A stretch of DNA of 64,000 nucleotides. Origin: Hydractinia symbiolongicarpus (lineage: Eukaryota > Cnidaria > Hydrozoa > Anthoathecata > Hydractiniidae). Both the position numbers and the translations under genes were made by a program. The notes under the pieces were generated by a model, which was given only the letters and a program-made list of their open reading frames with translations, had not been told where the DNA came from and searched no databases. Each line of letters begins with the position of its first letter. Position 1 is the first letter of the stretch. The stretch covers positions 27,102,001-27,166,000 of the forward strand of contig NC_079875.1 of assembly GCF_029227915.1 (NCBI RefSeq). The letters are read 5' to 3'. Of the stretch, positions 3,001 to 52,332 are shown one piece after another.

Positions 3001-6000
3001 GCGGAAAATATATAGAATCTGAGACGTTGTTAACCCTAAAGCACAATTATCTTGTATTAATACGAAAATTCGCAAGTATATGACACTCGTCACTGTGAAA
3101 TGCCTCGTTAATCAATCTTACGGTTAAAATATATAGAACTTGAGTCGATGTTGCAGACCCTAAGGGACAATTACCTTGTATCAATTCGAAAAATCGCAAA
3201 TATATGAGACATTTCTCTCCTTTAAATGCCTCGTTTATCAATTTTACGGTAATAATATATCGAACCTGAGAGGAGGTTGTTGACTCTAAATGACAAATAT
3301 CCTGCATCAATACGAAAAATCGCAAATTCAAGCCACACTTTGAAATGCCTCGTTTATCAATTTTACGGCTAAAATATATACAACCTAAGACGAGGTTGTC
3401 GACCGTAAATGACAATTATCTTGTATCAATACAAAAAATCGAAAATACATGATACTTGTCACTTTGAAATGCCTCGTTTATCAATTTTACGGCTATAATA
3501 TATGGAAACTGAGACGAGGTTGTCGACACTAAATGACAATTATCCTGTATCAATACGAAACACTGCAAATATATAACACTCGTCACTTTGAAATGCCTCG
3601 TTTGTCAATTTTACGACTAAAATATATAGAACCTGAGACGAGGTTGTCGACCGTAAATGACAATTATCATGTATCAATACAAAAAATCGCAAATATATGA
3701 GACATTTCTTTCCTTTAAATGCCTCGTTTATCAATTTTACGGTAATAATATATCGAACCTGAGAGGAGGTTGTTGACCCTAAATGACAAATATCCTGCAT
3801 CAATACGAAAAATCGCAAATTCAAGCCACACTTTGAAATGCCTCGTTTATCAATTTTACGGCTAAAATATATACAACCTAAGACGAGGTTGTCGACCGTT
3901 AATGACAATTATCTTGTATCAATACAAAAAATCGAAAATACATGATACTTGTCACTTTGAAATGCCTCGTTTATCAATTTTACGGCTATAATATATGGAA
4001 ACTGACACGAGGTTGTTGTCCCTAAAGTAGAATTTTCCTGTATCAACACGAAAAATCGCAAATACATGGCACACTTTTAAATGTCTTCTTTATCAATTTT
4101 ACGGCTAAAATATATAGAAACTGAGACGAGGTTGTCGACACTAAATGACAATTATCCTGTATCAATACGAAACACTGCAAATATATAACACTCGTCACTT
4201 TGAAATGCCTCGTTTATCAATTTTACGGCTAAAATATATAGAACCTAAAGACGAGGTTGTCGACCCTAAATGACAATTATCATGCATCAATACGAAAAGT
4301 CGCATATATATGAGACACTTGTTACTTTTAAATGCCCCGTTTATCAATGTTACGGCTGAAATATGAAAACTTCAAACGAGGCTGTTGACGCTAAAGTACA
4401 ATTACCTGTAACAATACAAAAAAAAATGCAAATATATGAGAAACTCGTCACATAGAAATGTCTTCTTTATCAATTTTACGGCTAAAATATATAGAAACTG
4501 AGACGAGGTTGTCGTCCCTAAATGACAATTGTCTTGTATCAATACAAAAAATCGCAAATATATGATACTCGTTACTTTAAAATGCCTTATTTATCAATTT
4601 TACGCGGAAAATATATAGAATCTGAGACGTTGTTAACCCTAAAGCACAATTATCTTGTATTAATACGAAAATTCGCAAGTATATGACACTCGTCACTGTG
4701 AAATGCCTCGTTAATCAATCTTACGGTTAAAATATAGAGAACTTGAGTCGATGTTGAAGACCCTAAAGGACAATTATCTTGTATCAATTCGAAAAATCGC
4801 AAATGTATAAACACTCGTCACTTTAAAATGCCTCGTTTATCAATTTTACGGTTAAAATATATAGAACTTAAGACGAGGTTGTTGACGCTAAATGACAATT
4901 ATCTTGTATCAATACGACAAATCGCAAATATATGAGACATTTCTCTCCTCTAAATGCCTCGTTTATCAATTTTACGGTAATAATATATCGAACCTGAGAG
5001 GAGGTTTTTGACCCTAAATGACAATTATCCTGCATCAATACGAAAAATCGCAAATTCAAGCCACACTTTGAAATGCCTCGTTTATCAATTTTACGGCTAA
5101 AATATATACAACCTAAGACGAGGTTGTCGACCGTAAATGACAATTATCTTGTATCAATACAAAAAATCGAAAATACATGATACTTGTCACTTTGAAATGC
5201 CTCGTTTATCAATTTTACGGCTATAATATATGGAAACTGACACGAGGTTGTTGTCCCTAAAGTAGAATTTTCCTGTATCAACACGAAAAATCGCAAATAC
5301 ATGGCACACTTTTAAATGTCTTCTTTATCAATTTTACGGCTAAAATATATAGAACCTGAGACGAGGTTGTCGACCCTAAATGACAATTATCTTGTATCAA
5401 TTCGAAAAATCGCAAATATATGAGACATTTCTCTCCTTTAAATGCCTCGTTTATCAATTTTACGGTAATAATATATCGAACCTGAGAGAAGGTTGTTGAC
5501 CCTAAATGACAAATATCCTGCATCAATACGAAAAATCGCAAATTCAAGCCACACTTTGAAATGCCTCGTTTATCAATTTTACGGCTAAAATATATACAAC
5601 CTAAGACGAGGTTGTCGACCGTAAATGACAATTATCTTGTATCAATACAAAAAATCGAAAATACATGATACTTGTCACTTTGAAATGCCTCGTTTATCAA
5701 TTTTACGGCTATAATATATGGAAACTGAGACGAGGTTGTCGACACTAAATGACAATTATCCTGTATCAATACGAAACACTGCAAATATATAACACTCGTC
5801 ACTTTGAAATGCCTCGTTTGTCAATTTTACGACTAAAATATACAGAACCTGAGACGAGGTTGTCGACCGTAAATGACAATTATCATGTATCAATACAAAA
5901 AATCGCAAATATATGAGACATTTCTCTCCTTTAAATGCCTCGTTTATCAATTTTACGGTAATAATATATCGAACCTGAGAGGAGGTTGTTGACCCTAAAT

Positions 6001-9000
6001 GACAATTATCATGCATCAATACGAAAAGTCGCATATATATGAGACACTTGTTACTTTTAAATGCCCCGTTTATCAATGTTACGGCTGAAATATGAAAACT
6101 TCAAACGAGGCTGTTGACGCTAAAGTACAATTACCTGTAACAATACAAAAAAAAATGCAAATATATGAGAAACTCGTCACTTTGAAATGCCTTATTTATC
6201 AATTTTACGCGGAAAATATATAGAATCTGAGACGTTGTTAACCCTAAAGCACAATTATCTTGTATTAATACGAAAAATCGCAAGTATATGACACTCGTCA
6301 CTTTGAAATGCCTCGTTTATCAATTTTACGGCTATAATATATGGAAACTGACACGAGGTTGTTGTCCCTAAAGTAGAATTTTCCTGTATCAACACGAAAA
6401 ATCGCAAATACATGGCACACTTTTAAATGTCTTCTTTATCAATTTTACGGCTAAAATATATAGAAACTGAGACGAGGTTGTCGACACTAAATGACAATTA
6501 TCCTGTATCAATACGAAACACTGCAAATATATAACACTCGTCACTTTGAAATGCCTCGTTTATCAATTTTACGGCTAAAATATATAGAACCTAAAGACGA
6601 GGTTGTCGACCCTAAATGACAATTATCATGCATCAATACGAAAAGTCGCATATATATGAGACACTTGTTACTTTTAAATGCCCCGTTTATCAATGTTACG
6701 GCTGAAATATGAAAACTTCAAACGAGGCTGTTGACGCTAAAGTACAATTACCTGTAACAATACAAAAAAAAATGCAAATATATGAGAAACTCGTCACATA
6801 GAAATGTCTTCTTTATCAATTTTACGGCTAAAATATATAGAAACTGAGACGAGGTTGTCGTCCCTAAATGACAATTGTCTTGTATCAATACAAAAAATCG
6901 CAAATATATGATACTCGTTACTTTAAAATGCCTTATTTATCAATTTTACGCGGAAAATATATAGAATCTGAGACGTTGTTAACCCTAAAGCACAATTATC
7001 TTGTATTAATACGAAAATTCGCAAGTATATGACACTCGTCACTGTGAAATGCCTCGTTAATCAATCTTACGGTTAAAATATAGAGAACTTGAGTCGATGT
7101 TGAAGACCCTAAAGGACAATTATCTTGTATCAATTCGAAAAATCGCAAATGTATAAACACTCGTCACTTTAAAATGCCTCGTTTATCAATTTTACGGTTA
7201 AAATATATAGAACTTAAGACGAGGTTGTTGACGCTAAATGACAATTATCTTGTATCAATACGACAAATCGCAAATATATGAGACATTTCTCTCCTCTAAA
7301 TGCCTCGTTTATCAATTTTACGGTAATAATATATCGAACCTGAGAGGAGGTTGTTGACCCTAAATGACAATTATCCTGCATCAATACGAAAAATCGCAAA
7401 TTCAAGCCACACTTTGAAATGCCTCGTTTATCAATTTTACGGCTAAAATATATACAACCTAAGACGAGGTTGTCGACCGTAAATGACAATTATCTTGTAT
7501 CAATACAAAAAATCGAAAATACATGATACTTGTCACTTTGAAATGCCTCGTTTATCAATTTTACGGCTATAATATATGGAAACTGACACGAGGTTGTTGT
7601 CCCTAAAGTAGAATTTTCCTGTATCAACACGAAAAATCGCAAATACATGGCACACTTTTAAATGTCTTCTTTATCAATTTTACGGCTAAAATATATAGAA
7701 CCTGAGACGAGGTTCTCGACCGTAAATGACAATTATCTTGTATCAATACAAAAAATCGCAAATACATGATACTTGTTACTTTGAAATGCCTTATTTATCA
7801 ATTTTATGACTAAAATATACAGAACCTGAGACAAGTTGTTGACCCGAAATGACAATTATCTTGTATCAATACAAAAAATCGCAAATATATGAGACATTTC
7901 TCTCCTTTAAATGCCTCGTTTATCAATTTTACGGCTAAAATATATGGAAACTGAGACGAGGTTGTCGACACTAAATGACAATTATCCTGTATCAATACGA
8001 AACACTGCAAATATATAACACTCGTCACTTTGAAATGCCTCGTTTGTCAATTTTACGACTAAAATATACAGAACCTGAGACGAGGTTGTCGACCGTAAAT
8101 GACAATTATCATGTATCAATACAAAAAATCGCAAATATATGAGACATTTCTCTCCTTTAAATGCCTCGTTTATCAATTTTACGGTAATAATATATCGAAC
8201 CTGAGAGGAGGTTGTTGACCCTAAATGACAAATATCCTGCATCAATACGAAAAATCGCAAATTCAAGCCACACTTTGAAATGCCTCGTTTATCAATTTTA
8301 CGGCTAAAATATATACAACCTAAGACGAGGTTGTCGACCGTAAATGACAATTATCTTGTATCAATACAAAAAATCGAAAATACATGATACTTGTCACTTT
8401 AAAATGCCTCGTTTATCAATTTTACGGCTAAAATATATGGAAACTGACACGAGGTTGTTGTCCCTAAAGTAGAATTTTCCTGTATCAACACGAAAAATCG
8501 CAAATACATGGCACACTTTTAAATGTCTTCTTTATCAATTTTACGGCTAAAATATATAGAAACTGAGACGAGGTTGTCGACACTAAATGACAATTATCCT
8601 GTATCAATACGAAACACTGCAAATATATAACACTTGTCACTTTGAAATGTCTTCTTTATCAATTTTACGGCTAAAATATATAGAACCTAAAGACGAGGTT
8701 GTCGACCCTAAATGACAATTATCATGCATCAATACGAAAAGTCGCATATATATGAGACACTTGTTACTTTTAAATGCCCCGTTTATCAATGTTACGGCTG
8801 AAATATGAAAACTTCAAACGAGGCTGTTGACGCTAAAGTACAATTACCTGTAACAATACAAAAAAAAATGCAAATATATGAGAAACTCGTCACATAGAAA
8901 TGTCTTCTTTATCAATTTTACGGCTAAAATATATAGAAACTGAGACGAGGTTGTCGTCCCTAAATGACAATTGTCTTGTATCAATACAAAAAATCGCAAA

Positions 9001-12000
9001 TATATGATACTCGTTACTTTAAAATGCCTTATTTATCAATTTTACGCGGAAAATATATAGAATCTGAGACGTTGTTAACCCTAAAGCACAATTATCTTGT
9101 ATTAATACGAAAATTCGCAAGTATATGACACTCGTCACTGTGAAATGCCTCGTTAATCAATCTTACGGTTAAAATATAGAGAACTTGAGTCGATGTTGAA
9201 GACCCTAAAGGACAATTATCTTGTATCAATTCGAAAAATCGCAAATGTATAAACACTCGTCACTTTAAAATGCCTCGTTTATCAATTTTACGGTTAAAAT
9301 ATATAGAACTTAAGACGAGGTTGTTGACGCTAAATGACAATTATCTTGTATCAATACGACAAATCGCAAATATATGAGACATTTCTCTCCTCTAAATGCC
9401 TCGTTTATCAATTTTACGGTAATAATATATCGAACCTGAGAGGAGGTTGTTGACCCTAAATGACAATTATCCTGCATCAATACGAAAAATCGCAAATTCA
9501 AGCCACACTTTGAAATGCCTCGTTTATCAATTTTACGGCTAAAATATATACAACCTAAGACGAGGTTGTCGACCGTAAATGACAATTATCTTGTATCAAT
9601 ACAAAAAATCGAAAATACATGATACTTGTCACTTTGAAATGCCTCGTTTATCAATTTTACGGCTATAATATATGGAAACTGACCCGAGGTTGTTGTCCCT
9701 AAAGTAGAATTTTCCTGTATCAACACGAAAAATCGCAAATACATGGCACACTTTTAAATGTCTTCTTTATCAATTTTACGGCTAAAATATATAGAACCTG
9801 AGACGAGGTTCTCGACACTAAATGACAATTATCCTGTATCAATACGAAACACTGCAAATATATAACACTCGTCACTTTGAAATGCCTCGTTTATCAATTT
9901 TACGGCTAAAATATATAGAACCTGAGACGACGTTGTCGACCCTAAATGACAATTATCTTGTATCAATACAAAAAATCGCAAATACATGATACTTGTCACT
10001 TTGAAATGCCTCGTTTATCAATTTTACGGCTATAATATATGGAACCTGAAACGAGGTTGTTGTCCCTAAAGTAGAATTATGCTGTATCAATACGAAAAAT
10101 CGCAAATTCAAGCCACACTTTGAAATGCCTCGTTCATCAATTTTACGGCTAAAATATATAGAACCTGAGACGAGGTTGTCGACCGTAAATGACAATTATT
10201 TTGTATCAATACAAAAAATCGCAAATATATGATACTCGTTATTTTGAAATGCCTAATTTATCAATTTTACGCGGAAAATATATAGAATCTGAGACGTTGT
10301 TAACCTTAAAGCACAATTATCTTGTATTAATACAAAAATTCGCAAGTATATGACACTCGTCACTGTGAAATGCCTCGTTTATCAATTATACGGCTAAAAT
10401 ATACGGAACCTGAGACAACGTTGTTGACCCTAAATGACAGTTATCCTGTATCAATACGAAAAATCGCAAATATATGACACCCGTCACTTTGAAGTGCTTT
10501 GTTTATCAACTTTACAGCTAAAATATATAGAACCTGAGACGACGTTTTCGTCCCTAAATGACAATTATCTAGCATAAATACGAAAAGTCGCATATATATG
10601 AGACACTTGTTTCTTTTAAATGCCCCGGTTATCAATGTTACGGCTGAAATATGAAAACTTCAAACGAGGCTGTTGACGCTAAAGTACAATTACCTGTAAC
10701 AATACAAAAAAAAATGCAAATATATGAGTAACTCGTCACATAGAAATGTCTTCTTTATCAATTTTACGGCTAAAATATATAGAAACTGAGACGAGGTTGT
10801 CGACCGTAAATGACAATTATCTTGTATCAATGCAAAAAATCGCAAATATATGAGACATTTCTCTCCTTTAAATGCCTCGTTTATCAATTTTACGGCTAAA
10901 ATATATAGAAACTGAGACGAGGTTGTCGTCCCTAAATGACAATTGTCTTGTATCAATACAATAAATCGCAAATATATGATACTCGTTGCTTTGAAATGCC
11001 TCGTTTATCAATTTTACGGTTAAAATATATAGAACTTTAGACGAGGTTGTTGACGCTAAATGACAATTATCCTGCATCAATACGAAAAATCGCAAATGTA
11101 TGAGACACTCGTCACTTTTAAATACCTCGTTTATCAATTATACGGCTAAAATGTAAGTAACTGAGACGTTGTCGACCCTAAATTACAGTTATCCTGTATC
11201 AATACGAAAAATCGTAAATATATAACACTCGTCACTTCTAAATGCCTCGTTTAATAATTCCACGGCTAAAATATAAGAACCTGAAACGAGGTTGTTGACC
11301 CTAAAGTACAATTATCTTGTATCACTACGACAAATCGCAAATACAGGACACTCGTCACTTTAAAATGCCTCGTCTATCAATTTTCCGGCTACAATACATA
11401 GAACCTGAGACGAGGTTGTCGTCCCTTAATGAAAATTATCTTGTATCAATACGAAAAATCGCAAATATATAACACTCGTCTTTTTTAAATGCCTCGTTTA
11501 TTAATTCCACGGCTAAAATATAAGAACCTAGACGTTGCTGACCCTAATGTGCAATTATCTTGTATCAATACGAATAATCGCAAATACATGACAGTCGTCA
11601 CTTTGAAATGCCTCGTTTATCAATTTTACTACTAAAATATATAGAACCTAAGACGACATTGTTGCCCCTAAATGACAATTATCCTGTATCATTACGAAAA
11701 ATCGCAAATATATAATACTCGTCACTTCAAAATCCCTCGTTTATCAATTCCACGGCTAAAATGTGAAAATCTAGACGTTGTTGACCCTAAAGTACCATTA
11801 TCTTGGATCACTACGAAAAATTCCAAACACATGACACTCGTCACTTGGAAATGCCTAGTTTATCAATTTTCTGGCTATAATAGATAGAACCTGAGACGGT
11901 CGTCCCTATATGACAAGTATCTTGTATCAATACGAAAAATCTCAAATATATGACACTGTTCAGATTGAAATGCCTCGTTTACCAATTCCACGGCTAAAAT

Positions 12001-12396
12001 TTAAAAGCCTGAGGCGAGGTTGTTGACCGTCAAGCACAATTATTCTGTATCAATACGAAAAATCGCAAATACATGGCACTCGTCGCTCCTAAATGCCTCG
12101 TTTTTCAATTTTACGACTAATATATAATGCACCTGAGACGAGGTTTTCGACCCTAAATGACAATTATCTTGTATCAATACGCAAAATCTCAAGTACATGA
12201 CACTCGTCTCTTTTAAATGCCTCGTTTATCAATTTTACGGCTAAAATATATAGAACCTGAGACGTTGTTAACCCTAAAGTACAATTATCTTGTATCAATT
12301 CGAAAAATCCGAAATACATAACACTCGTCACGTTGAAATACCTCGTATGCCAATTATACGGCTATAATATATAGAGCCTGAGACGAGGTTGCCGAC
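1..12396 (-). repeat. Satellite array, about 124-bp monomers
   Basis: Roughly 100 head-to-tail copies of a monomer near 123-125 bp fill this stretch. Landmarks that recur in every unit are TTTATCAATTTTACGG, GAGACGAGGTTGTCGAC and GACAATTATC followed by TATCAATAC. Monomers differ by substitutions and small indels (some lose about 5 bp at GAGACGTTG), so individual monomer types can be followed. Because the unit is close to 41 codons, minus-strand frames often stay open for 60-122 residues and repeat the same peptide; these are by-products, not genes. Strand is given as minus only because those open frames lie there. The array begins before the window. Function unknown; a pericentromeric or heterochromatic satellite is the default reading. 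Confidence 0.95.
4381..10668. repeat. Higher-order repeat blocks inside the satellite
   Basis: A distinctive monomer containing GCTGTTGACGCTAAAG starts at 4381, 6727, 8823 and 10669, giving successive blocks of 2346, 2096 and 1846 bp. These fit about 19, 17 and 15 monomers, each block about 250 bp (two monomers) shorter than the last. The flanking monomers repeat in the same order from block to block. An older, different periodicity is seen further left: matching segments start at 913 and 2509 (1596 bp apart) and at 1419 and 2896 (1477 bp apart). The pattern is what unequal crossing-over with loss or gain of monomer pairs would leave. Confidence 0.8.
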
Positions 12397-13105: not shown

Positions 13106-13556
13106 TTAATTTCTGTAATGTTCTTGCAATAAACGTTTGATAGTGTTATTACGAGTACCATCATAAGCAGTTTTGTTCCATGTGTTACGTATATTGACAT
13201 CGATGTGTGGTATAGACAACAACAACTTCACACAATCAGTGTGACCATTACGAGATGCAAGATGTAATGGTGTGTCATTGTTAATGTTTGTTACGTCATG
13301 ATTAATTACAACTTTCAAAACATCATGATGACCATAACTTGCACTGTAGTGATATGCATTCCATTTATGTATATTCACAGCATACACATCGCTACCAGCA
13401 TCAATCAAACATTTCACTATTGATGGTTTATTGTAACGTGCTGCTTTCATCAAAAGTGTTGTTTCATAAACACCTCTCATTTTAACGATACTTGGATGAT
13501 CCATAAGAATTGATTGAAATGTCTTGACATCGCCATTTATAATGATATTTTCGATT
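13106..13556 (-). CDS. Ankyrin-repeat protein, 3' exon (partial gene)
   Basis: An open minus-strand frame of about 150 residues ends in TAA at the left edge. It contains about four consecutive ankyrin units, the clearest being NNDTPLHLASRNGHTDCVKLL, preceded by units with TTLLMKAARYNKPSIVKCLI and NAYHYSASYGHHDVLKVV. Ankyrin repeats are protein-binding helical hairpins. There is no convincing ATG: the frame opens just after CTTGTGTTTAG, which looks like a splice acceptor, so I take it as the last exon of a longer gene whose upstream exons lie to the right (higher coordinates) and were not found. The last residues run into a short Arg/Lys-rich tail rather than another domain. It could also be a fragment left by duplication. 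Function cannot be narrowed further from repeats alone. Confidence 0.7.
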
Positions 13557-14067
13557 TCTAAACACAAGTTATGTTGTAATAATTAAAAACAAAAATGACA
13601 AGGGTGTCAACTTTAAATAAAATTTATTGCGCAAAATGAAATAGGGCCGAAGTTCGCAGTCGGCGCAAAATATAAATAGGAATCTCTATTTCTAACCTCT
13701 TAAGTTTTAAGAACATTTATATAGTCAATTGTCTAAAAATTAAAACTTTAAGAACATAATTATTAATAAGTTTATTTGGCTTATGTTATTTTTAGTAAAT
13801 AATAAAAATTAATCTCATCATTTTTTAAACCGATATAAACAAGTTGCGAGTGTAAAAATTTAAAGTGTGTATTTGATATTCTGTTTTATTATTGATGTAA
13901 TTTCCCTGGTAACAAAGTTTCCGCGGGGCTTCGCAGTTGACTGGAGTCACGTGACATCTTCGTTCAATGCTTCCATTTTTTGCACGCATTAGTTTTATTT
14001 ACAGTCCTCTGAAAGAAGAAAAACGCTGTTAGTATCCTCGATTTTGATTAGGTGCAACCTAACAGTG
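13557..14067. other. Non-coding spacer upstream of ankyrin exon
   Basis: AT-rich sequence. An upstream exon of the ankyrin gene would be expected here or further right, but none could be recognised. Confidence 0.4.
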
Positions 14068-20741: not shown

Positions 20742-21602
20742 TATAGAAAGAGTTGCGGAGAGGTTGCCAAGGCAAAGGCATTAAGCACGGCAAGGAAAGG
20801 GCAAAGGCAGGCAAGAAAACAGGAAGAGGAATCAGGAAGGCAGGGGTGGGTAAGGCATGGTAGGCACAGGCATGGGAGGCACAGGCAAGGACATAGTAGG
20901 CAGGCACCAGAAAAGGCATAGGAAGGGTAGGCAAAGAAAGGCACGGTCAGTGCTGGCAAGGAAATGGAACGGCAAGGCAGGGGTGCATGACTTTAATAGA
21001 AAATATCCACCTTACAACTCAAAGATTGTGTATACTCAATATATCTAAGATAAGTATCATATTAGTCCAGGAGTATAGAAAGTATTGAGGTGCAAATATT
21101 TCAAATTCAATATCTCAAAAAAAGTCTCAAATTTATCTCAGGTCAATATACAGTGAGTCATGTTAGCAGAATTATGTGCCATTACAAGTATTTAAACAAT
21201 CGGTCATAACGCCATATGATTTTTTGATAAATCTGAGATTAACTTGATTCCAATGCCAACAACATTAAAAAGTCAAGATATAGAAATAATCAAAGAAGTC
21301 TTCGAGAAATGCAAAAAAATTATTAAAAAACGCCTTTTTTGGTTTCTTGTGCCTACCAGGTGTATCAACAAAAACTTTTTACCATAAAGTAGATCTATTA
21401 CAAAAAGCAAAGCACTTTTGGGCTCTATAAATGAAAGTGATAAATGTATGCAACTCCCCCCCTCTACGACTCAAAGATTACCTATTATATGAAAACCTGG
21501 TTGTTGTAGGTGCAAGATAATTATGTTTTTTCTAGCCCTGTCCAGGATGTTAACCTGGATCTCTTATTTGAAGGAGTGTCATAGCCATTAGACCAACAGG
21601 GC
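20740..21602 (-). repeat. SINE-like repeat, copy A (interrupted)
   Basis: Read on the minus strand it starts with a tRNA-like head (21602-21535), continues through a body containing CTTGCACCTACAACAACC, and ends in a low-complexity tail of GCCTTGCC-type units (20990-20740, seen as GGCAAGG on the plus strand). The junction ATAGAAAGAGTTGCGGAGAGG at its left end is shared with copy B at 28812. About 450 bp of unrelated sequence (21000-21450) separates tail from body, so this copy was split or the match is patchy. No coding function; open frames across the tail are low-complexity artefacts. Confidence 0.65.
21535..21602 (-). tRNA. tRNA-like pseudogene, SINE head (copy A)
   Basis: The minus strand folds like a tRNA at both ends: acceptor strands GCCCTGT and ACAGGGC pair fully, a D-arm-like GTCTAATGGCTATGAC follows, and the T-arm stem CCAGG/CCTGG is intact. 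The T-loop reads TTAACAT instead of TTCGAAT, which damages the B box, and the anticodon arm does not form a regular 5-bp stem with a 7-base loop. I therefore read it as a decayed tRNA-derived head of the repeat. Confidence 0.5.
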
Positions 21603-22059
21603 ATAAACATAAATATATATACAATACTTTACAGGTGAATATTATATACACTTAGGAATTTACAGCACACAGCCTAGATAAATTAAACTTTTGAGAAATG
21701 CTGGTTAAGCCACAAGTAACTGTGTTACCTGGCATAAAACACTTGTTGAAACAATTAATACAAATTGTAAACTGTACCACACATTCAGGTGGAGCGCCTT
21801 AGTACAGGTGTGCACTATATCATAAATCGAGTGAAACACCCAACATTTAAGGTGTGTTGGGTGTATAATTATATTTTTCAGATTCACAAAATATATATTT
21901 CCTTCAACTTTAGCTTGAATAAAAACACAATTTACATATTGTGCCATGTCATAGCGAAAACTGTCAGCAAACCTTTTTTATTTTTCACAAAATGTTCCCG
22001 GTAAAACCTAAAATATATGTACTTTAATCTGTGGTGCGCCATTAGTATAGGTAAAAAAA
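21603..22059. other. Non-coding spacer
   Basis: AT-rich sequence. No gene or clear repeat seen between the SINE copy and the duplicated unit to the right. Confidence 0.4.
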
Positions 22060-23164: not shown

Positions 23165-23935
23165 TAAACACGGCACTATGATTGAGTGTATTATCTCACT
23201 CACTGTGTATTATATGTAGAGCTATAGCTAGCTATAGCCAGAAAATCTATTTCTTTGTAGCTAGCTAGTTTTATACTAGCCATTATGATATTGCTTCATC
23301 TTTTTTATGCTATTAGCTAGCTAGCTCTTCAATTCAAGTAGCTCTAGCTAGCTATTTAAGTTCTATTATTATTCCAGCTCATTCAGTAGTTTTATGCTAG
23401 CTAGCCTTAGGTGTGAGTAAGAATAAGAAAGGGTTCATTACATACCCTTTCTTTCTTCGCTTTCTTGAACATAACAAGCCCTTCCGTCAGTTGCGATATG
23501 GCTTAGATTGAGTTTGAGGCGCTATGTGTCCGAGAAAATGTCATGTGATGTTAGTAAAAGTGATTTATGTATCACGTGGCTAAAAAGTGTAGGCAGATTT
23601 AACCTAAACTGGAAACGGCACCATTTACGCTTGGTACCATATTTAAAAAACAACAAAAACTCCATCGCCGTGCTAAAAACATGTTGTCTCGCTCACTAGA
23701 AAAATGTACTTAAGAATGACCATATGAAATCGCTGGGAGACTGGGCCCCAAAACGACGGATTTTTGATATTTTTGATGTATAGGGGGACGGGGCACGGAA
23801 ATCGTATAGAAATCTTATATACTCTCCACCGTGCTTACTTTTTCTTTTATATTTGGCTTATTTAATGAGGAAATGGGCTCCGCTACGCTCCGGGCGCTGA
23901 CGCGCCCTCCGCTACTCTCCGCAAAAATCGAAAAT
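23165..23935. repeat. Dispersed composite repeat, copy 1
   Basis: A TAGCTAGC-rich head, then a middle with CTCCATCGCCGTGCTAA, then TATATACTCTCCAC and GCTTATTTAATGAGGAAATG, ending in a GC-rich imperfect palindrome (CTCCGGGCGCTGACGCGCCC) and CTCCGCAAAAATCG. The same order is found at 32175-32770. It has no coding frame and no clear terminal inverted repeats, so class is unknown. Confidence 0.7.
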
Positions 23936-23996
23936 AAAATACTAAATAATGTAAAATGCACACGTGATATTTCACTGAAAAAGAATAATTTAAACA

Positions 23997-26900
23997 TTAA
24001 TTTGATCCACGGTACGATCCACGGTATCCACCTCGATAGCCACCGCCATAACCACGATTTCCTCTTGGTGCTATAACAATGAAAAAGAAAATACTAAGTA
24101 AATACATCCAATAAACACTGGGTAGGGTATGGGCGGGACAGCATTATATCGTACTTCTATTTTATTTATAAAATCCAAATTACATTGCGGCCGCTACGCG
24201 GCCTTACGTAATTTAGTAATTTTATTTCATAAAATTTCCGTCGATATAATGCTGAGTCATCCAACCCTATGGCGCTAGAATAAGCGCGGCCCTGCGGGCC
24301 CCACATATCCTCAGTTCAAAGCGCTACCCAGTCCTATTGTCTCTTGAAATACTTGTGAAACAGGTCTGACAGTCTTATGATAATGTTTCTGCCAAGTTGT
24401 TTTACCAGACCACTTTCCCCGTTTCAAAATATCCGCAGTTGAAAGTCCAATTGCCTTTGCTTTTGAAGTGGAGGCAGATCTTGTAGAATGTGCGAAAAAT
24501 GAATCAGTATCAATTCCCGCTTCCTTCAAGATTGACTTCATCCATCCTGCGACTGTAGATGGTACCACAGCCTGATAGGGATGCAATGTGCTCAAAAGCA
24601 ACTGTGAATGTTCATCATTTTTTCGCCACTTGTGAGTTCTTGTAATATAACACTCAATAGCATTCACAACACACAATTTTGAATTACTCTCAAACTTATT
24701 GAATTCGAAAGATGGAGCGGAAGAGCCTTTCTTCCTGGTTTTGGTTATCTTATCAAATGTAAATACATAACTGTCTTCGGACTTAACCATGTGATTAATA
24801 TTCAAGTAACAAATTTCTGATCCCTTTGAAGCAGAAGTCAGTGCTAACAACATCGCTAATTTGTGAGACAAAACTTTTGTAGATAAGCTGTTATTAATTG
24901 GGAGTGTATTGAAATAATCAATCTCTACTTGCACATCCCAAATAAATGTGAAACGTGGTTTAGTGGGTCTCAAATTGAATACACCTGTCATCGAAGAACA
25001 AATTCTAGGATGTTCCCCCACATTGACAGAATTTATTGGTTCATGGTAAGCGGAAATAGCTGACCTATGACCATTAATTGTGCTATATTCATAACCTTGA
25101 TGAAATAACATAGCTAAATAGTTTGCAATTACATTTACATCACATCGAACAGGATCAGCTTGTTGTTGCATACACCAGCCAGACCACTTACGCCAGGCCG
25201 ATTGGTAATTAGAAATTGACCCTTTGCGTCTGGAATTTGTGATAAGCTCTGTAGCTTTCGACGATAATCCTTCTGAAGCCAAGCATTCCCTGAAGCAGTC
25301 CAGGCCGCTAGTCTTAATTGATTGTGTTTGACTAGAGGGTGTATCTGACCCTGAGAATTCGTCAATAACTGAGGGTGCTTGGGAAGAAGTACTGGATTTT
25401 GAATTGACATTTCCAGTAGTATAGAATACCACGGTTGACTTTGCCAAGCTGGTGCTAATAAAAGAAGGACTGTTCCTTCTTGGGCAACTTTCTTTAGAAT
25501 TTTTGGAATCAAGCAAAATGGAGGGAAGGCATACCCGTACAGTCCCCCCCCACTCCTTTTGCATGGCATCCGTCCCCACACTGTTTGGATCCGGACGCCA
25601 GGACATGTAAGTCTCCAACTGATGATTTAGACGGGACGCAAAAAGATCTATCTCTGGCTTTTGTCTGATTGTTATAAGTCTTGCAAACACTGTTTGATCC
25701 AATTGCCAATCGCTCGGATCCATATTGTTGCGTGACTCCCAGTCCGCTACTACATTCAGACTGCTGGGAAGATATTCCGCAGTAATCATGATCTGCTTGG
25801 ACAAAAGAAAATCCCAAATTTCCTTGGATATTTGCATCAGGTGCATGTTTTTTGTGCCCCCCATTTTTAGGAGATAGCTCAACACAGTCATGTTGTCTAT
25901 CTGCAAGTGGATTGTTTTTCTCCATTGATTTTTCAGAAAAGTTTTCAGGGCTAATTTTACCGCCAAAAGTTCTAGCACATTGATATGGTATTCCCTTTCT
26001 TGTACTGACCATTTCCCCCCTGTGGAAATTCCTTGACAAGCTGCTCCCCAGCCTTTCATGGAAGCGTCTGTTTGGATTGTGTAATCCGCTTGAATTATTT
26101 TTAGAGGCCTGCCATTTTGGAGGTATAGGTTTTCCTTCCACCACTTCAGTTCTTCCAGAGACTGTGAATTTAGAACAATCTGAGACTGATATGACTGAGT
26201 CTTTTGAAGAGCCTCTATTTGCTGAAACTGCAGATACCGATGCTGCAGCTTTCCTGGAAGAACTGCTTGAGTGATGAAAGTTAGTTTCCCTATCAGTTTT
26301 GTCAATTCCAAGATATTTGTTACCGGATTTGCAATCAAATGAGTACACTTTTTTACAATTTGTATCATTTTGTCCTGTGGCAAAGACAAGGTCATCTTTT
26401 GCGAATCTATGACAAGTCCCAGAAATTCTATTTTCTGCACTGGTGTCAACTGAGATTTTTTCTGATTTATTATGTAACCTAAATTTTGTAACAGAAAAAT
26501 CAATGTTTCCTTTGCTACCCGCATGAACTCCAAAGTTTTTGCCATCAGTAACATGTCGTCCAAAAACACTACCATCCGCACCATTATTCTTCGAAGAAGA
26601 GATATTGGAATCTTCATTAGTTTTGTGAAGATCAAAGGTGCTGGGCCCAGACCAAAACACAGGCAGAGGAACTCGTAAAGGCTTCCCTCCCAAAGAAACC
26701 GGAGAAACCTTCTCGATTGACTGCTTATTGGTATGCAGAAGTATGCGTCCTTCAGGTCTATTTTGCACATAAAGTCGTTTTGTTGTAGCAGATCCCTGAG
26801 AAGCCCTAAACTTTCCATCTTGAAATGGGAATATGGTATGAAGCTGTTCAAATGTTTCAGGTTTATTATCGGACGATTTCCACCGTCCTTTTTTGGTATC

Positions 26901-29900
26901 ACAAACATGTTGCTCAGAAATTGGTTTGGTACATGACTCACTTTGTGAATAGCTCCTTTTTGTACCATTCTTAATACTTCGTTGTTCAGCAGTAACATTG
27001 CCTCTTGACTTATATGAGGAGTCAGAGGTTTTTGATTTTGCTGAGGTACAGAAATGAATGGGATCACATACCCTTTTACTACAGACAGAATATTTTGATC
27101 TTGTGTCAATTTCTCCCAATTCTTTGCAAAATGTTGTAACCTTCCTGCTAATGGTACCCTTGGAATTATGTTTGAAAACATGGACCTTATTAGAGGATGT
27201 ACATGGTTTATACTCACTTGCATTATTTCTAGCAGGTGTGAATTGTAAAGTGAAAGTATTCTTACCTCCTGAGTTGGAACTGGTTGTTGTACTGGAAGAA
27301 CCATAGTCTTTTCTGACAAAATATCCACGCCCTCTCGAACCTCTTCCACGGTTGAGAGAGCCTCCACGAAAGGGAGTATAACTTCCTTTAAATTCCTTTT
27401 TCAAAAGCTCCTGGCACTTCTGCTTAGTTTTCATGCTTGAGCACCAGTCATCCCGAAATTTTTCCCCAAATAGATCCTCTTCCATGTTGGAAAGCAATGA
27501 AGATTTTTCTTTTAGCAATTGTTTACTTTTCGTATCTTTCATGAGAGCAGATAAAACACGAACACGACGCAAATATGTCACCGCATTGTTCGCTTGTCCC
27601 AACAGCAAAATCGACTGTTCTACCAGTTCATTCACTTCCTCCAGAGCTACTTCTATTTCACCTGGTTGAGCTGATAATGCCCTTTGCATTAATGACCATA
27701 TTTTAGACAAGGGCCCTAAAACATCGGTTATTTTTTGTTGGACTTTTTGACTCGACTTGTCCTCTGCAACAACTGGGGACTTGGTCTTTTCCTCCAGCAA
27801 TGCTGTCAGATAGCTGTCCAAGTTTGATGGGCCAGGTACATTCTCTGGGACAGGACTTTTATTTAAAATACAAGATTTTAAATTATGATCACTAATATAC
27901 GTTGCAAAATGTTTAACAACATAGTCTCTTTGATCTTCTGTAAAATTATAACTATACTCTCTTTCTGAGGGAACCACCTTAAATTTCTTTAAAGGTGGGC
28001 AATAATCCCCTTCTGATTGATCACTGACGGTGCTGTCAGTCCCAGGAAGGGAGTTTTTCCTCTTCCTGGATACTTTCTCTGATTGACTGGCGTTAATTTC
28101 TGTCCCAGTACAAACAGGTTTGTTCTCAGTAACATTGGTAGGTTCATTCTCGGTAACATTGGTAGCCATTTTTGAAAATCTGAAGATAAGAGAAAACTTT
28201 GTTTTCACATCCCGAGAAATGTTTTAACCACAAAATGACTCATCACATATGTCAATGAGTATTAGGAGAGTTGCTTTTATAAGCTAACTCTATCAAGAAT
28301 TCTAGTTTAGCTAGGATAATAAAAGATAAAATACCTTTTCCTTTAGTAAACAAAACAAGATACGTCTTTCTTCGCTAGCGAAGGTTGGAAAAAGAGGATA
28401 TGTGGGGCCCGCAGGGCCGCGCTTATTCTAGCGCTATAGGATTGGATGACTCAGCATTATATCGACGGAAATTTTATGAAATAAAATTCGCCTGTATTAT
28501 ATATTTTCATTTTTGTCTTGCTGAAAGAGTTTCCCACATGGTCAAATTTTACTTTAGGATGATAGGGATGTCTAGTTTCTACTGATGACCGCAACATCTA
28601 ATGCCTCTTTGTACCATGAGTTGTGAAAAAATCTACATTGTTCCTGCAACCCATAGTTGTATTTTTTAAATTAGTAATGTATCGAACATTATCTGTAATA
28701 TCAATACTTCTATCTTGAAGCAAAGTTGTAACACCATGTGTTAGTGCCAAAACATTTCTGGTCACAACAACAGATACAATGAAATCAAAGGTAGAAATTT
28801 CATTAAAACCAGTATAGAAAGTGTTGCGGAGAGGTTGCCAAGGCAAATGCATTAAGGAAAGGGCACGGCAATATATTTAGCGTTGCACGGCAAAGGCAGG
28901 CAAGGAAACAGGAAGAGGAATCAGCAAGGCAGGGGTAGGCAAGACAGGGGTAGGCAAGACAGGGGTAGGCAAGGCATGGGAGGCACACGCAAGGGCATAG
29001 CAGGCAGGCACCAGAAAAGGCATAGGAAAGGAAGGGATTTATTAAGAACGGCAAGGAATGGGAGCGACAAAGGCAGGCAAGAAAACAGGAAGAGGAATCA
29101 GCAAGGCAGGTTTAGGCAAGGCATGGGAGGCACAGACAAGGGCATAGTAAGCAGGCAACAGAAAAGACATAGAAAGGGTAGGCAATGGCAAAGGAACGGC
29201 AAGGCAGGGCCAGGCATTTAAATATACACTCCTTCCCCTTCTACAACTCGAAGATTACGTATATTTAATTAAGGTATTATAAGGTCAATATACAGAATTT
29301 TATCAATATAATACAACGGGGTTGTTGTAGGTGCAAGATAATGTTTTTCATGCCCTGTCCAGGATTCGAACCTGGATCTCTCGTTTACGAGTGTCATAGC
29401 CATTAGACAAACAAGGCGTAATAATTATGTAATTTTGTTAATTAAATATACTTAAATATTTACACTTGTGTCTAATAAAGTAAGTAATATTGATCATTAT
29501 CCATCAGTTTTTGACCTTTCGTATTAAAGGATCGTGTGTTTCAGGCTTAATCCCGAAGTTTGAGGTGAAACTAAGTAAGTTTATTGAAAAAATTTTCCAG
29601 CATGCAAAGGAACGAATATTATCAGAAGAAACTACCACTTTATTCTTTATTATTCCATGAAATTAACGAGTTAAGAAATTAACGCAAATTACATTTAATT
29701 AACACGAATTTGAGAATATGCTACATCACACGGAGCGAAAATTACGGTAACAGGCGATTTTATTTATTGTAAAAAAAGTCAGCAATTTACAGTATTTTAA
29801 TCAACGAGTCATGAAATTAAAAGTCTTTAAATTAACACGAATTTTGAAAAACCGGTTTACACGCTTTTTTTATAAGAATATTGTTTTTTCGTTTCAGCCT

Positions 29901-32174: not shown

Positions 32175-32770
32175 TCACTCACTGTGTGCAGTAGCAGCTA
32201 GCTAGCTCAAAAATCCGTCCTAAAGTCTTAGGACGGATTTTTGAGAATTTTCTTATGATGCTATCTTCTTATCATCTAGCATAAGAGAAAACTTAATAGG
32301 CATTTTTATGCTAGTTAAATTGGTAGTTTTATGCTAGCTTAGCTGCTACTGTTGTGCTAGATAGCTTTAGGTGTATGTAAGGGGTTTTCACAACCTTTAA
32401 AAAACAGTGATCATAACCTCCACTTCTTTCTTGAAAAATCTCATCATTTCGCTTCTAGCTGGCTGACTACGTTCAGCACCATCTTTAAAACACAACAAAA
32501 ACTCCATCGCCGTGCTAATAACACGTTGTCTCGCTCAATCAGATATTTACGAAAATTTACCAACAAATGACCAGATAAAATTACTGGGCAACACTGATAA
32601 AATGGCAGAATTTTTTACAAATTTGATGTATAGGGACGAAATCGTATAGAAATCCTATATACTCTCCACGTGCTTACTTTTCACTTATATTTGGCTTATT
32701 TAATGAGGAAATGGGCTTCGCTACGCTCCGTGCGCTAGTGCGCACTCCGCTACTCTCCGCAAAAATTGCA
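32175..32770. repeat. Dispersed composite repeat, copy 2
   Basis: Same order of motifs as 23165-23935: CACTCACTGTGTGCAG and TAGCTAGC head, TTTTATGCTAG repeats, CTCCATCGCCGTGCTAA, TATATACTCTCCAC, GCTTATTTAATGAGGAAATG and the GC-rich palindrome ending CTCCGCAAAAATTG. It runs directly into satellite monomers. Confidence 0.7.
32206..32245. repeat. Perfect 18-bp hairpin
   Basis: CTCAAAAATCCGTCCTAA, a four-base loop AGTC, then TTAGGACGGATTTTTGAG. The arms match without a mismatch. It is absent from copy 1 of the surrounding repeat, so it is either an insertion or a locally preserved structure. Too short for a normal microRNA precursor. Confidence 0.85.
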
Positions 32771-33515
32771 AATATATGAGACACTTGTCTCTTTTAAATG
32801 CCTCGTTTATCAATTTCACGGCTAAAATACGAAAACTTGAAAAGACGTTGTTCACCCTACAGTACAATTATCCTATATCAATACAAAAAATAGCAATTAT
32901 ATGAGACACTCGTCTCTTTTAAAAGCCTCGTTTATCAATTTTACGGCTAAAATATATCGAAGCTGAGATGAAGTTGTTGACACTAAAGTACAGTTATCCT
33001 GTATCAGCACAAGAAATCGCAAATATATGATACTCGTCTCTTTTAAATACCTCGTTTATCAATTCTACGGCTAAAATATAAAAACTTAAAACGAGGTTGT
33101 TGACCCTAAAGTACAATTATCCTATATCAATACAAAAAATCGCAAATATATGAGACACTGGACTTCTTTAAATGCCTCGTTTATCACTTACACGGCCAAG
33201 ATATATGGAACATGAGACGAAGTTGTTGACCCTAAAGTACAATTATCCTGTATCAGCACAAGAAATCGCAAATATATGATGCTCGTCTCTTTTAAATGCC
33301 TTGTTTATCAATTTTACGGCTCAAATATAAAAACTTGAAGCGACGTCTCTTTTAAATGCTGCGTTTATCAATTTTTCGGCTAAAATATATGGAACTTGAG
33401 ACGAAGTTGTTGACCCTAAATGACAATTATCCTGTTTGAATACGAAAAATCGCAAATATATAGACACTCGTCTTTTTTAAATGCCTCGTTTATCAATTTT
33501 ACGGCTAAAATATAC
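32770..33515. repeat. Satellite outlier, about six monomers
   Basis: The same monomer family as 1-12396 reappears (GCAAATATATGAGACAC, TTTATCAATTTTACGGC, GACGAAGTTGTTGACCC), about 20 kb from the main array, in the same plus-strand orientation. It starts where the GC-rich tail of the composite repeat ends and stops where the AACGTT-rich segment begins. Monomers here differ from one another more than neighbours in the main array do. Confidence 0.92.
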
Positions 33516-48079: not shown

Positions 48080-51000
48080 TCCAGCGGGGCTTTTAAAACA
48101 ACAAACCAGATTGTACTTTTATGCGAAACCGTCACTCGACAACACCTGCTGTGGCACTTCGTACAATAACCACTCCCAGTGGCTCCGACATGTGTCCTCG
48201 AGACACAAGAACCAGGTGATTCGCTACAACTGCTCCAAATGTAATCGAGAAGACTTCATCTCCATCAGAAGCGTCAGCACTCATGCCAGTCGTTGCAAAC
48301 CCGCTGTTCCCGTTGAAGCACCTGCTTTAACGAATGACTGTTCTTGTCCGTGGTGCGACTTCCGTTGCCAGACCAAATCCGGTCTGGGTGTTCATCAGCG
48401 GAGGAAGCACCCGAAGGAATTCGAATCCGATAAGATAATAGCGAGGAGCAAACAACGCTGGTCCACCGAGGAGCTTAAAATCCTGGCACGAGCCGAACTG
48501 CTGATACTCGCTTCGTGAATCAAGCGTTAATGGCGAAATTTCCAGAACGATCTTTGGAAAGTATTAAAGGAGCACGAAACAAAAGCGCTGCATATCGAGC
48601 TTGTCTGGAGGAACTCAGACAAGAACTACATCTGATTGTCGAGGAACCAGCTATAAACAACGAGCCTCAACCTAACGTGGGTACCACTGAAGTAACACCT
48701 ACTGTGAACCCTCCGGGAACACACGCTGACTTCGTTAATGCGATTATGGAATCATCTGAACATGATCCTGAACTCCACCAACTTGTCTGCAATTTGATTG
48801 CTGGCTCTAACGATGTCACCGACCTCGATGATTATTTGGTGTCCCACTATACGTACAACAAAAGGTCAAATAAGCCGTTAAATCGATCCAACACCACTCG
48901 ATACAGACGCCGCATCAAACTTCGACGCTTTGCACGATACCAGCAAATGTACCGACGAAATAAAAAGCACATGGCAGACATGATATTCTACAACACCGAA
49001 GAGGCATCTGTCTTTCCATCCAAGGACGCCATCAACGACACGTATGGTCGCTTGTACTCTTCAACCAGTCCTCGTGACGATGCCGAGATAACAACACCCA
49101 AACGCTCAGGTAGCACTTACTACCCGGTTTCTGCCAATGAGTTATTAGGGTGTTTGAAATCGATGAAGCACAAGTCACCTGGCGTGGATAACATGACCTT
49201 ATTCCACCTGAAGAACGTCGACCATAGAAACATCCTCACCATCGTAAACGTCGTGCTGTGGAAACAGTCCCAGCCAGCGTCCTGGAAAAGGAACAAGACT
49301 ATTCTAATCCCGAAGAAACAGGATGACCTCCAAAATGCGAGCAACTGGAGACCGATTACGCTTTCCGTCATGTTCGTACGTCTTTTACACAAAATCTTAG
49401 CTTCCCGCATCAGTACCTCCATCAATTTGAATCAAAGACAAAAGGCCTTCATCCCTGTCGATGGATGCGCCGCAAACGTCCTCCTTCTCGACGCCATCAT
49501 TCAGAACGCTAGGAAACGTCATCTAAATCTGTCTTTGGTCGGTATCGATTTATCTAAAGCTTTCGACACCGTGTCCATTAATTCCATCAATAGAGCCCTG
49601 CTCCGACATGGTGTCAAGCAGCAGACGATCTGCTATGTGCTCGACTCATACACAGGTGCTACAACCGACATCTCATGCGGCCCTAGTACAGTCGAGAATG
49701 TCATCATCTCCAGAGGGGTTAAGCAAGGCGATCCATTGTCACCTATTATCTTCAACATGGTCTTGGACGAGTTATTAGATTCCTTGCCGTCCTACATTGG
49801 CGCACTACTATCTCCAGATAGAAGACTCAACAACCTGGCTTTCGCTGATGATCTTATTCTATTGTCCGAGACGAAGACTGGTATGGATGTACTCCTCAGT
49901 AAAACATCTCGCTTTTTCGATGATCGAGGCATGACGATCAACACCAAGAAATGCTTCTCCATGCGAATGACCACCGCGAAGAAGGATCGCAATACAGTCG
50001 TCATTAGAGAGCCTTCTTTTTCCATCAATGGCGTCGCACTTTCAACATCTGATTATGACATGTCATTTAAATACCTGGGGATACACTTCAACCCGAATGG
50101 CAAGATGAGACCGAATCTAAACCACCTGTCAACCCTACTGTATCGACTGAAGTCTGCGCCTCTCAAGCCCTACTAGAAGCTCGAGCTTCTGAGAAACAAC
50201 CTCCTGCCACGATTTCAGCATCAAACGGTACTCGGCCGTGTCACTAAAGGTCTTTTAACATCATTCGACCTTAACGTACGTATGTGGGTCAAGGATCTCC
50301 TTGGCCTTCCCATGGACACACCAACGTCCTTTTTCTATACGAAACCTAAAGACGGTGGCCTAGGCCTACCATCCTGCGCCTTAACAATACCAATGATGCT
50401 TCTGAGACGCATAGCGAACATGGCTGATTCCTCAGATGCAGCGATCCAGGCTCTACTGGCGCTCGAATCCACCAACACCCTAAAACTTAGGTGCGTGAGA
50501 ATTTTTGAAGAGGCTACACCCGAAGACGCGATGAGGAAGAACCCCCGCTTCAGCGACCAGCTGTATGCTACAATTGACGGCAAGCCGCTAAGTGAGTTGA
50601 AGAACAATCCCAACGGCTAATTATGGCAAAAAGGCACCACATCGATTATCTCAGGTCGTTCATACATCGAATTTGTCAAGCTACGTATTGGACGACTCCC
50701 TACACTTGAGAACTGTAATCGTGGGCATGACGTGGACAAAAAGTGCAGGCACTGTCAAAGGGTGGGGGAAACCCTTTCCCACGTAGTGCAACATTGCAGC
50801 TTTACGCACTTTCCACGAATAAAAAGACATGACTCCATTGTGGACTACGTAAAGGACATTGCGATCAAGAATAAACACCAAGTATTGGTAGAACCAGTTT
50901 TTACCATTGCTGGAATAAGATTAAAACCTGACCTCGTGGTTGTGCGTCCGGATAGCGTCATCGTTATAGACGTATCCATCGTCACCGAGCTAATGCGCTT

Positions 51001-51579: not shown

Positions 51580-51617
<38 letters not shown>

Positions 51618-52008
51618 TGACACTGTGAAAAGACATAGGAGGTGTAGTTATAGGTGGGAGCGCAAGCGACAGTGAAATACCACTACTCTTATAGTTTTTT
51701 TTACTTATTCGATTAAGCGGAAGCGAGCTTTACGGCTCATTTTCTAGAATTAAGGCCCCATCGGCGGGTCGATCCGTGTCGAAGACACTGTCAGGTTGGG
51801 AGTTTGGCTGGGGCGGCACATCTGTCAAATGATAACGCAGGTGTCCTAAGGTGAGCTCAATGAGAACGGAAATCTCATGTAGAACAAAAGGGTAAAAGCT
51901 CACTTGATTTTGATTTTCAGTATGAATACAAACTGTGAAAGCATGGCCTTTCGATCCTTTAGTCTTTAGGAGTTTTAAGCTAGAGGTGTCAGAAAAGTTA
52001 CCACAGGG
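51464..52008 (+). rRNA. 28S rRNA gene fragment, 3' of the R2 site
   Basis: Recognisable large-subunit rRNA from the R2 site onward: TAGCCAAATG, then CGTCATCTAATTAGTGACG, CGGGGAAAGAAGACCCTG, TTGAGCTTGACTCTAGTCTG, GGTCGATCCGTGTCGAAG, GGCGGCACATCTGTCAAATG, GATAACGCAGGTGTCC and ending GTTACCACAGGGAT. It breaks off there; the expected AACTGGCTTGTGG does not follow. A few differences from the usual sequence (ATGTCTCG for ATGCCTCG, GGCAAAATC for GGCAGAATC) suggest slow decay. A fragment without the upstream 28S or the 3' end is an orphan piece and not a working rRNA gene. Confidence 0.93.
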
Positions 52009-52332
52009 ATGAAACTGAAACCCAGGGCGACGTGTGACCTAGTGGTACCCCTGTCACAGAACCCCGCCAGTCCCGCCCCTCCCTTGACAGGGACACCACT
52101 GGTGTCGACGCAGTGACTGTGCGCGAAGCGCTACCTTTATGAAAAATGTCACTTATGGTGACCACTGATGTTGACGCAGTCACCTGAAACAAGCCACCCT
52201 GTAATTGCTACCTACACGACAGAGATCTCAATAAACAGTAGCGATTTCTCACTACTGTTTATTAAGAAAAGTGTAAAGCAAAACGCGAATTTTAATGACG
52301 TTGATATATATATATAAAAACCATGTCCTTTT
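52009..52332. other. GC-richer spacer with a 12-bp hairpin
   Basis: Immediately after the 28S break the sequence is GC-richer and holds partial repeats (GTCGACGCAGTGACTG and GTTGACGCAGTCACC; TAGTGGTACCCCTGTCA against TGACAGGGACACCACTG). At 52230-52263 AATAAACAGTAG and CTACTGTTTATT form a perfect 12-bp stem with a 10-base loop. It may be a separate small insert that truncated the rRNA fragment. Confidence 0.55.

Follow-up and report, generated by a model that had tools for sequence, protein, structure and literature searches.

The window analyzed here, a 64,000-nucleotide (nt) stretch of the Hydractinia symbiolongicarpus genome (NC_079875.1, positions 27,102,001 to 27,166,000), carries on its minus strand an element that its sequence identifies as a decayed copy of a DIRS1-like tyrosine-recombinase (YR) retrotransposon. 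Based on its repeats and on homology among copies, this copy spans positions 28488 to 23924. An earlier note on the same DNA had assigned it to DIRS, and the reverse transcriptase (RT) and RNase H (RH) domains, the YR and the repeats bear this out. The note also pointed to an unusually long overlap between two open reading frames (ORFs), the gag-frame ORF and the RT-bearing ORF (27367-24311, 1018 amino acids), which indeed covers ~619 codons. The features of the element are listed below from its left end.

28394..28488, minus strand: left inverted terminal repeat, the element's left end (95 nt, 98% complementary to 24218-24312; homology between copies starts at 28487-28497)
28208-25509, minus strand: gag-frame ORF (899 codons from a GTG; first ATG at 28169)
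27375..28169, minus strand: Gag-like N-terminal part of the gag-frame ORF, starting at the first ATG, 28169
27366..27374, minus strand: candidate +1 frameshift site CCC_UUU_CGU, written in gag-frame codons (9 codons past the last RT-frame stop, 27403-27401)
25512..27374, minus strand: overprinted stretch, in which the gag frame is open over RT/RNase H (0 stops; collinear with the middle of the Gag-YR proteins described below, that is, their linker)
25552..27400, minus strand: RT and RNase H, +1 relative to gag (RT frame open from 27400; Pfam matches)
25544..25551, minus strand: run of eight G, a one-base displacement of both frames compared with relatives (RT-to-RNase H gap of 7 rather than 6 nt; frames in 22 relatives)
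25138..25543, minus strand: C-terminal part of RT/RNase H (here in the frame of a 148-residue ORF, 25581-25135; +1 best in 22 of 22 Gag-YR relatives)
24314..25543, minus strand: YR-bearing part (continuing the gag frame in relatives, sharing the RT frame in the window copy; frame 0 best in 22 of 22)
24218..24312, minus strand: left internal complementary region (complement of the element's left end)
24139..24224, minus strand: right internal complementary region (95% complementary to positions 3164-3249 of copy L006, the right end of that copy)
23924..24138, minus strand: 3' part of the element (homology to other copies ends at 23924)

Pfam recognizes RVT_1 (E 3.5e-20), RT_RNaseH (E 1.2e-4, slightly below the curated cut-off) and, at residues 830-998, Phage_integrase (E 1.6e-6, above the cut-off) in the 1018-residue ORF. 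No integrase core is among the Pfam hits listed for the window ORFs, and a tyrosine recombinase takes the place of a DDE integrase. The Gag of the window matched no Pfam family above the cut-off, and a PDB search gave no match.

Over 606 RT codons, the gag frame contains no stop and the third frame contains 74. The earlier note had described a gag frame open for ~619 codons across RT and RNase H, where dozens of stops would be expected, and both statements hold. With the RT protein kept and its synonymous codons permuted, 28.4 +/- 3.9 stops arise (minimum 14 in 5,000 runs), and redrawing the codons with YR, gag or joint codon usage gives means of 37.0-38.4, so that the null means lie between 28 and 38. 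The longest run left open by chance in 9,000 draws was 181 codons; simulation with the same RT protein, named in the note as a way to refute its claim, thus never produced an open frame of this length. The note had also seen a regional deficit of T at RT third positions, which does not stand, as T ends 146 of the 619 RT codons. What is missing is T at one kind of position: within the overlap it ends 0 of 153 RT codons before AA, AG or GA, compared to 145 of 465 before other dinucleotides. In the non-overlapped part of the RT-bearing ORF, the corresponding counts are 35 of 106 and 110 of 293. As T is frequent at third positions other than those where it would create a stop, base composition cannot explain the openness, and its absence solely at stop-making positions is stronger evidence than a regional deficit for what the note had proposed, namely that selection keeps the second frame open. 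The probability that chance or base composition did so is negligible: none of 14,000 null runs had fewer than 14 stops, and non-overprinted relatives in the same genome have 32-33. These control elements, L021 and L022 (RT-YR, 36-37% RT identity; L022 is itself damaged elsewhere), contain 33 and 32 stops in the corresponding frame, respectively, and T ends 33 of 154 codons before AA, AG or GA and 78 of 376 before others in L021, and 32 of 144 and 74 of 365 in L022. L021 (G000:C9:6221321-6227230) is a distant RT-YR element with RT, the RNase H end and YR in a single frame, without overlap.

At the G run (25551-25544), a one-base change of phase separates RT from the RNase H end, and gag from YR, in the window copy. 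Past this run, stop avoidance persists, now between the frame of the RNase H end and that of YR (T ends 0 of 25 codons before AA, AG or GA and 41 of 109 others), and the former gag frame has 11 stops. The selected frame is the one leading from Gag to YR, not the 899-codon Gag; the window gag frame ends early, at 25511-25509, because both frames are displaced at the G run. The earlier note had taken an 899-residue Ser/Asn/Lys-rich protein as the product, and the window frame does end at 25511-25509 without an earlier stop, as expected of an extended Gag whose C-terminus falls within RNase H and whose own sequence is under selection. Such a protein is nevertheless very improbable: the same frame runs into YR in 22 database relatives and in three copies of the same genome (L012, L015 and L017), stop avoidance passes to the YR frame past the G run, where the old gag frame fills with stops, and residue conservation is mostly near the null expectation (see below).

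Relatives were collected from protein databases with two queries: residues 240-899 of the gag-frame ORF retrieved three proteins, two of which (1,291 and 1,431 residues) have an integrase-type (YR) domain, and the YR part of one of these retrieved 39. Among the resulting 41 proteins, 22 align collinearly with the window Gag, overprint and YR within a single chain of 989 to 1,448 residues; the window Gag (ORF residues 1-280) is matched by 23, in P0002 at its end only. The window RT could be recovered from the +1 frame of the 22 Gag-YR proteins with scores of 578-864, compared to at most 71 over all proteins for the controls (other frame, reversed RT and shuffled RT). All 22 give their best score for the RNase H end in +1 and for the lead into YR in frame 0, the latter with the narrowest margin in P0013 (54 vs 44). 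We also counted, in these 22 of the 41 proteins and skipping the first 30 residues of each overprint, Met followed by Met, Ile, Thr, Asn or Lys, which forces a stop in the RT frame. None of the 110 Met residues in the overprints is followed in this way (25.1 expected), whereas such dipeptides occur at the expected frequency in Gag (39 of 143) and YR (25 of 91). A collinear chain together with an RT in +1 means that in these relatives Gag and YR form one ORF with RT/RH nested inside. The three separate ORFs (gag, pol and YR) expected of DIRS1-like elements were not found; Gag and YR share a single ORF in these 22 proteins and in L012, L015 and L017. One of the 22 database relatives, P0012, is the host genome's own kind: all of its 1,267 residues align to L015/L017, at 99% identity. 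Searches of viral contigs and one search of genome contigs yielded no relatives.

In a YR tree, from which P0035-P0037 (YR cut) and P0002 (no YR match) were left out, the Gag-YR proteins do not form one clade (10 changes) but are spread over several branches, and most proteins without a window-type Gag fall in one group. The label for the latter in the tree (noGag) mixes P0005, P0009, P0017, P0020, P0023 and P0031, which are probably truncated, with proteins that seem to lack a window-type Gag in this ORF. Some proteins (e.g., P0028, P0029, P0032, P0034 and P0039) match the overprint and YR without the window Gag in the ORF. Four others, P0011, P0027, P0033 and P0040, have the window RT followed by YR in one chain, like the RT-YR ORF of the window copy, and may be displaced copies.

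The host's own genome (481 Mb) yielded at least 69 matches. L012 (RT 56% identical to that of the window) and the near-identical L015 and L017 (51%) have no stop in RT or in the gag frame across RT, and their gag frame extends without interruption from Gag as far as the YR end, over 1,037-1,055 codons. In L002 (97% in RT), starting at the Gag end, the frame stays open over 951 codons, and Gag itself is displaced further upstream. RT lies in +1 to gag in 14 of the 18 other copies having both, and the RNase H end lies in +1 to YR in all 15 other copies.

Openness appears to be conserved rather than the residues themselves. The identity of the overprint to 25 of the 41 proteins is 0.19-0.30, approximately that of a rough simulation requiring openness only at equal RT fit. 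At the DNA level, 9 of 30 loci were compared in 36 pairs, 31 of them between families, with a null that keeps the RT protein, codon usage and openness; z ranges from -0.2 to 2.4 in 28 of the 31 between-family pairs, and most values are above zero. Residue-level constraint on the overprint thus seems weak or absent. Residue-level selection was considered as the main reason for the openness and rejected, since identity and z are mostly near null. As for the selection that the earlier note had predicted, the conserved absence of stops stands, and selection on the residues finds little support in these values. It seems that openness itself is selected and that the stretch behaves as a tolerant linker or passage; splicing or a separate start as the sole route to YR would not keep it open. 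We also considered that the frame is a relic of an ancestral gag-YR fusion, too young to have gathered stops. The proteins P0028, P0029, P0032, P0034 and P0039, with overprint and YR but no window Gag in the ORF, are compatible with this scenario, but it is extremely unlikely given zero stops in families sharing 51-56% of RT residues and across the 22 relatives. Third positions are near saturation between families (0.29-0.46 identical), which together with the zero stops leaves no room for a relic.

A candidate +1 frameshift site, through which the nested RT could be reached, lies before RT. In six of seven subfamily representatives (these, and the four aligned below, were picked by eye), the start of the open RT frame lies 7-56 codons upstream of one spot (263 in L028), and at this spot all seven have CCC TTT in the gag frame, followed by CGT, CGT, CTT, CGG, TCA, CGA and CGA. 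CGN therefore follows UUU in five of seven, with CTT in L012 and TCA in L024; in the seven-way alignment, L009 and L028 have just 40 and 29 open gag codons upstream. Elsewhere in the Gag stretches of the representatives, CCC is used for 9 of 56 Pro codons and TTT for 32 of 45 Phe codons. CCCTTT is present upstream in 10 of 14 further loci, in the gag frame in 6, and CCC TTT in the gag frame was found in 19 of 26 loci examined. A Gag alignment of four families contains 25 conserved residues with degenerate codons, only three of which have the same codon in all four; all three belong to the site (P, F and a G three residues further), compared to 0 of 22 upstream. P-F also occurs near the border in 21 of the 22 relatives (the scripted scan found none in P0037, in which L-F-R is seen there by eye), with R as the next residue in 13, Q in 5, P in 2 and S in 1; in L012 this residue is L. 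Since codons for R, Q, P and L can start with C and those for S with U, tRNA-Phe can re-pair one base on. The window site CCC TTT CGT (27374-27366) has the characteristics of the UUU_CGN class of shift sites, that is, a zero-frame UUU followed by CGN, located inside the overlap, with the downstream ORF in +1. Thus, RT/RH are probably produced by +1 frameshifting at CCC_UUU_CGU.

Taken together, the analysis makes it quite probable that Gag and YR are encoded by one ORF with the whole RT/RNase H nested in +1, that this frame is kept open for ribosomes heading to YR, and that RT/RH result from a +1 slip. Unshifted ribosomes would produce Gag-linker-YR. Some ribosomes would slip +1 at CCC_UUU before RT when tRNA-Phe moves from UUU to pair again with UUC or UUU, and these would produce Gag-RT-RH. 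The absence of stops from the gag frame over RT/RH would then follow from the need of ribosomes to pass through it on the way to YR.

Several observations weigh against this reading. Gag and RT have another phase in 4 of the 18 copies (L009, L013, L019 and L028). Gag-frame stops occur in decayed copies (14 in L029, 7 in L010, 5 in L027, 4 in L028, 3 each in L019, L025 and L030, and 2 in L018), whose RT matches are also split or stop-bearing; the absence of stops that the earlier note had proposed to test in related copies is found in L012, L015 and L017 and breaks down in decayed ones. Three pairs are above the null in the residue comparison (z of 4.1 for window/L012, 3.6 for window/L018 and 5.4 for window/L009), and they are also the pairs that retain the most synonymous similarity. 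With regard to the site, 7 of the 26 loci have no gag-frame CCC TTT upstream of RT (L005, L010, L018, L019, L021, L027 and L030), among which L005 and L010 start too late, L021 is a control and L018 is a near copy of L012; 4 of the 14 further loci have no CCCTTT upstream; and Ser, instead of a codon starting with C, can follow UUU (L020, L024 and P0022). In addition, an RT-frame ATG precedes the site in L012, L024 and L029, where an internal start is possible, and a requirement for P-F in both frames would likewise force CCC TTT.

The last two points favor an alternative in which the Gag-YR layout is kept but RT/RH come from an internal or non-AUG start or from splicing, CCC_UUU being conserved as both frames encode P-F. 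We regard this as rather unlikely. L015/L017 contain no RT-frame ATG from the opening of the frame to 20 codons past the first aligned RT residue, the RT frame of L001, L009 and L015 is open for just 7-23 codons upstream of the site without an ATG, and the RT-frame residues upstream of the site differ between families, as judged by eye.

The nested layout with a +1 slip was compared with known systems, for which the literature is cited according to the portions of each source that were available. A long ORF overlap was reported in half of 28 DIRS elements (PMC3266345), and pol and YR were described as "frequently extensively overlapped" (PMC6681497). DIRS1-like elements with such an overlap share with the present element RT/RH, YR, inverted terminal repeats (in the window copy, the left one) and internal complementary regions, as well as a YR ORF that overlaps pol in another frame and has the catalytic YR in its non-overlapped 3' part; they differ in that Gag is a separate first ORF, whereas the present Gag shares the frame of YR in an ORF that surrounds the whole RT/RH region (PMC3266345, PMC6681497). 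Dictyostelium DIRS-1 likewise has three partly overlapping coding regions (GAG, RT/RH/methyltransferase and YR), but GAG is its own ORF1, and no Gag-YR fusion is described in the text available (PMC5633606). UUU_CGN is the +1 frameshift motif of influenza A PA-X and plant amalgaviruses, which have in common with the present site a UUU followed by a zero-frame CGN and a downstream ORF in +1; there, tRNA-Phe re-pairs onto UUC (PMC5052127). Unlike in those viruses, the putative site here belongs to a DNA-borne retrotransposon, CCC always precedes UUU in the seven representatives, and CUU or UCA replaces CGN in two of them. In Ty1, Ty2 and Ty4, Gag terminates shortly past the shift; the present gag frame, in contrast, continues to YR. 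These are also retrotransposons that reach Pol by a +1 shift, but their heptamer, CUU_AGG_C, is unlike the present site (PMC5052127).

In the literature searched, subscription reviews aside, neither titles and abstract openings nor the available text described a Gag that shares its frame with YR around a nested RT, or a frameshift in a DIRS element; this text includes PMC3266345, PMC5633606, PMC3783388, PMC9210276, PMC2685390, PMC5941688, PMC6681497, PMC3537659, PMC2996953 and PMC8547959. The long pol/YR overlap in DIRS is thus already established, and the Gag-YR frame and the shift site are the new part as far as this search extends. More broadly, it seems likely that a widespread DIRS group has YR as the default C-terminus of Gag, reached through a passage of 600-700 codons, and obtains RT/RH by a PA-X-like +1 frameshift, so that the usual order of expression would be reversed. 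This would account for an overprinted frame of ~600 codons staying open and give a testable answer to how nested-ORF DIRS elements obtain two enzymes from one message. The stretch would also be a clear natural case of a long frame seemingly selected mainly for the absence of stops and not for its residues, and, with non-overprinted controls in the same genome, it could serve to calibrate overlapping-gene tests. Should the +1 site be functional, a shift motif reported from RNA viruses (PMC5052127) would extend to a group of retrotransposons.

The window copy itself appears to be broken, the displacement at the G run severing gag from YR and RT from the RNase H end. No displacement is present at this spot in 13 of the 16 other copies having RT and the RNase H end, and the one in the window may be a mutation or an assembly error. 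Near the same G run, L003/L008, L025 and L029 have a one-base displacement in the opposite direction, which hints at a hotspot or at assembly errors.

With regard to the ends of the element, its repeat plan is the DIRS1-like plan given in the available part of PMC3266345, and the two internal complementary regions share a few bases where the circular junction is presumed to lie. No methyltransferase is among the Pfam hits to the three window ORFs. A methyltransferase in pol has been described for DIRS1-like elements and, being reported for 38 families in Xenopus, is not universal, according to the accessible portions of PMC3266345 and PMC9210276; with this domain taken as optional, the DIRS1-like placement rests on the repeats. 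Position 24218 was considered as the right boundary and rejected, as the repeat there is the internal complementary region and homology reaches 23924. The right terminal repeat of the window copy was not found in the window; in L006 it lies at about 3134-3249 and is ~85% similar to the left one. A dispersed repeat at 23626-23936, with a second occurrence 8.8 kb off (32468-32774), adjoins the 3' break at 23924 and may have replaced the right terminal repeat.

Besides the DIRS copy, the window contains several other features. A satellite of ~124 bp is repeated in ~100 copies at the window start (1-12396) and occurs again at 32761-33346; the flank of the DIRS copy in L006 matches this satellite, so that copy lies in or beside it. 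An ORF with ankyrin repeats is located at 13106-13567 on the minus strand (Ank_2, E 1.5e-20). A tRNA-like match at 29351-29417 on the minus strand (Rfam tRNA, 48.8 bits; not called by ARAGORN) is repeated at 21486-21606 and is perhaps a tRNA-derived SINE. Finally, an RT ORF at 48515-50176 on the plus strand (RVT_1, E 1.3e-31) is 1.4 kb upstream of a eukaryotic 28S rRNA fragment on the same strand (51583-52051; Rfam LSU, 461 bits), and the two together may be an R2-like insertion in rDNA.

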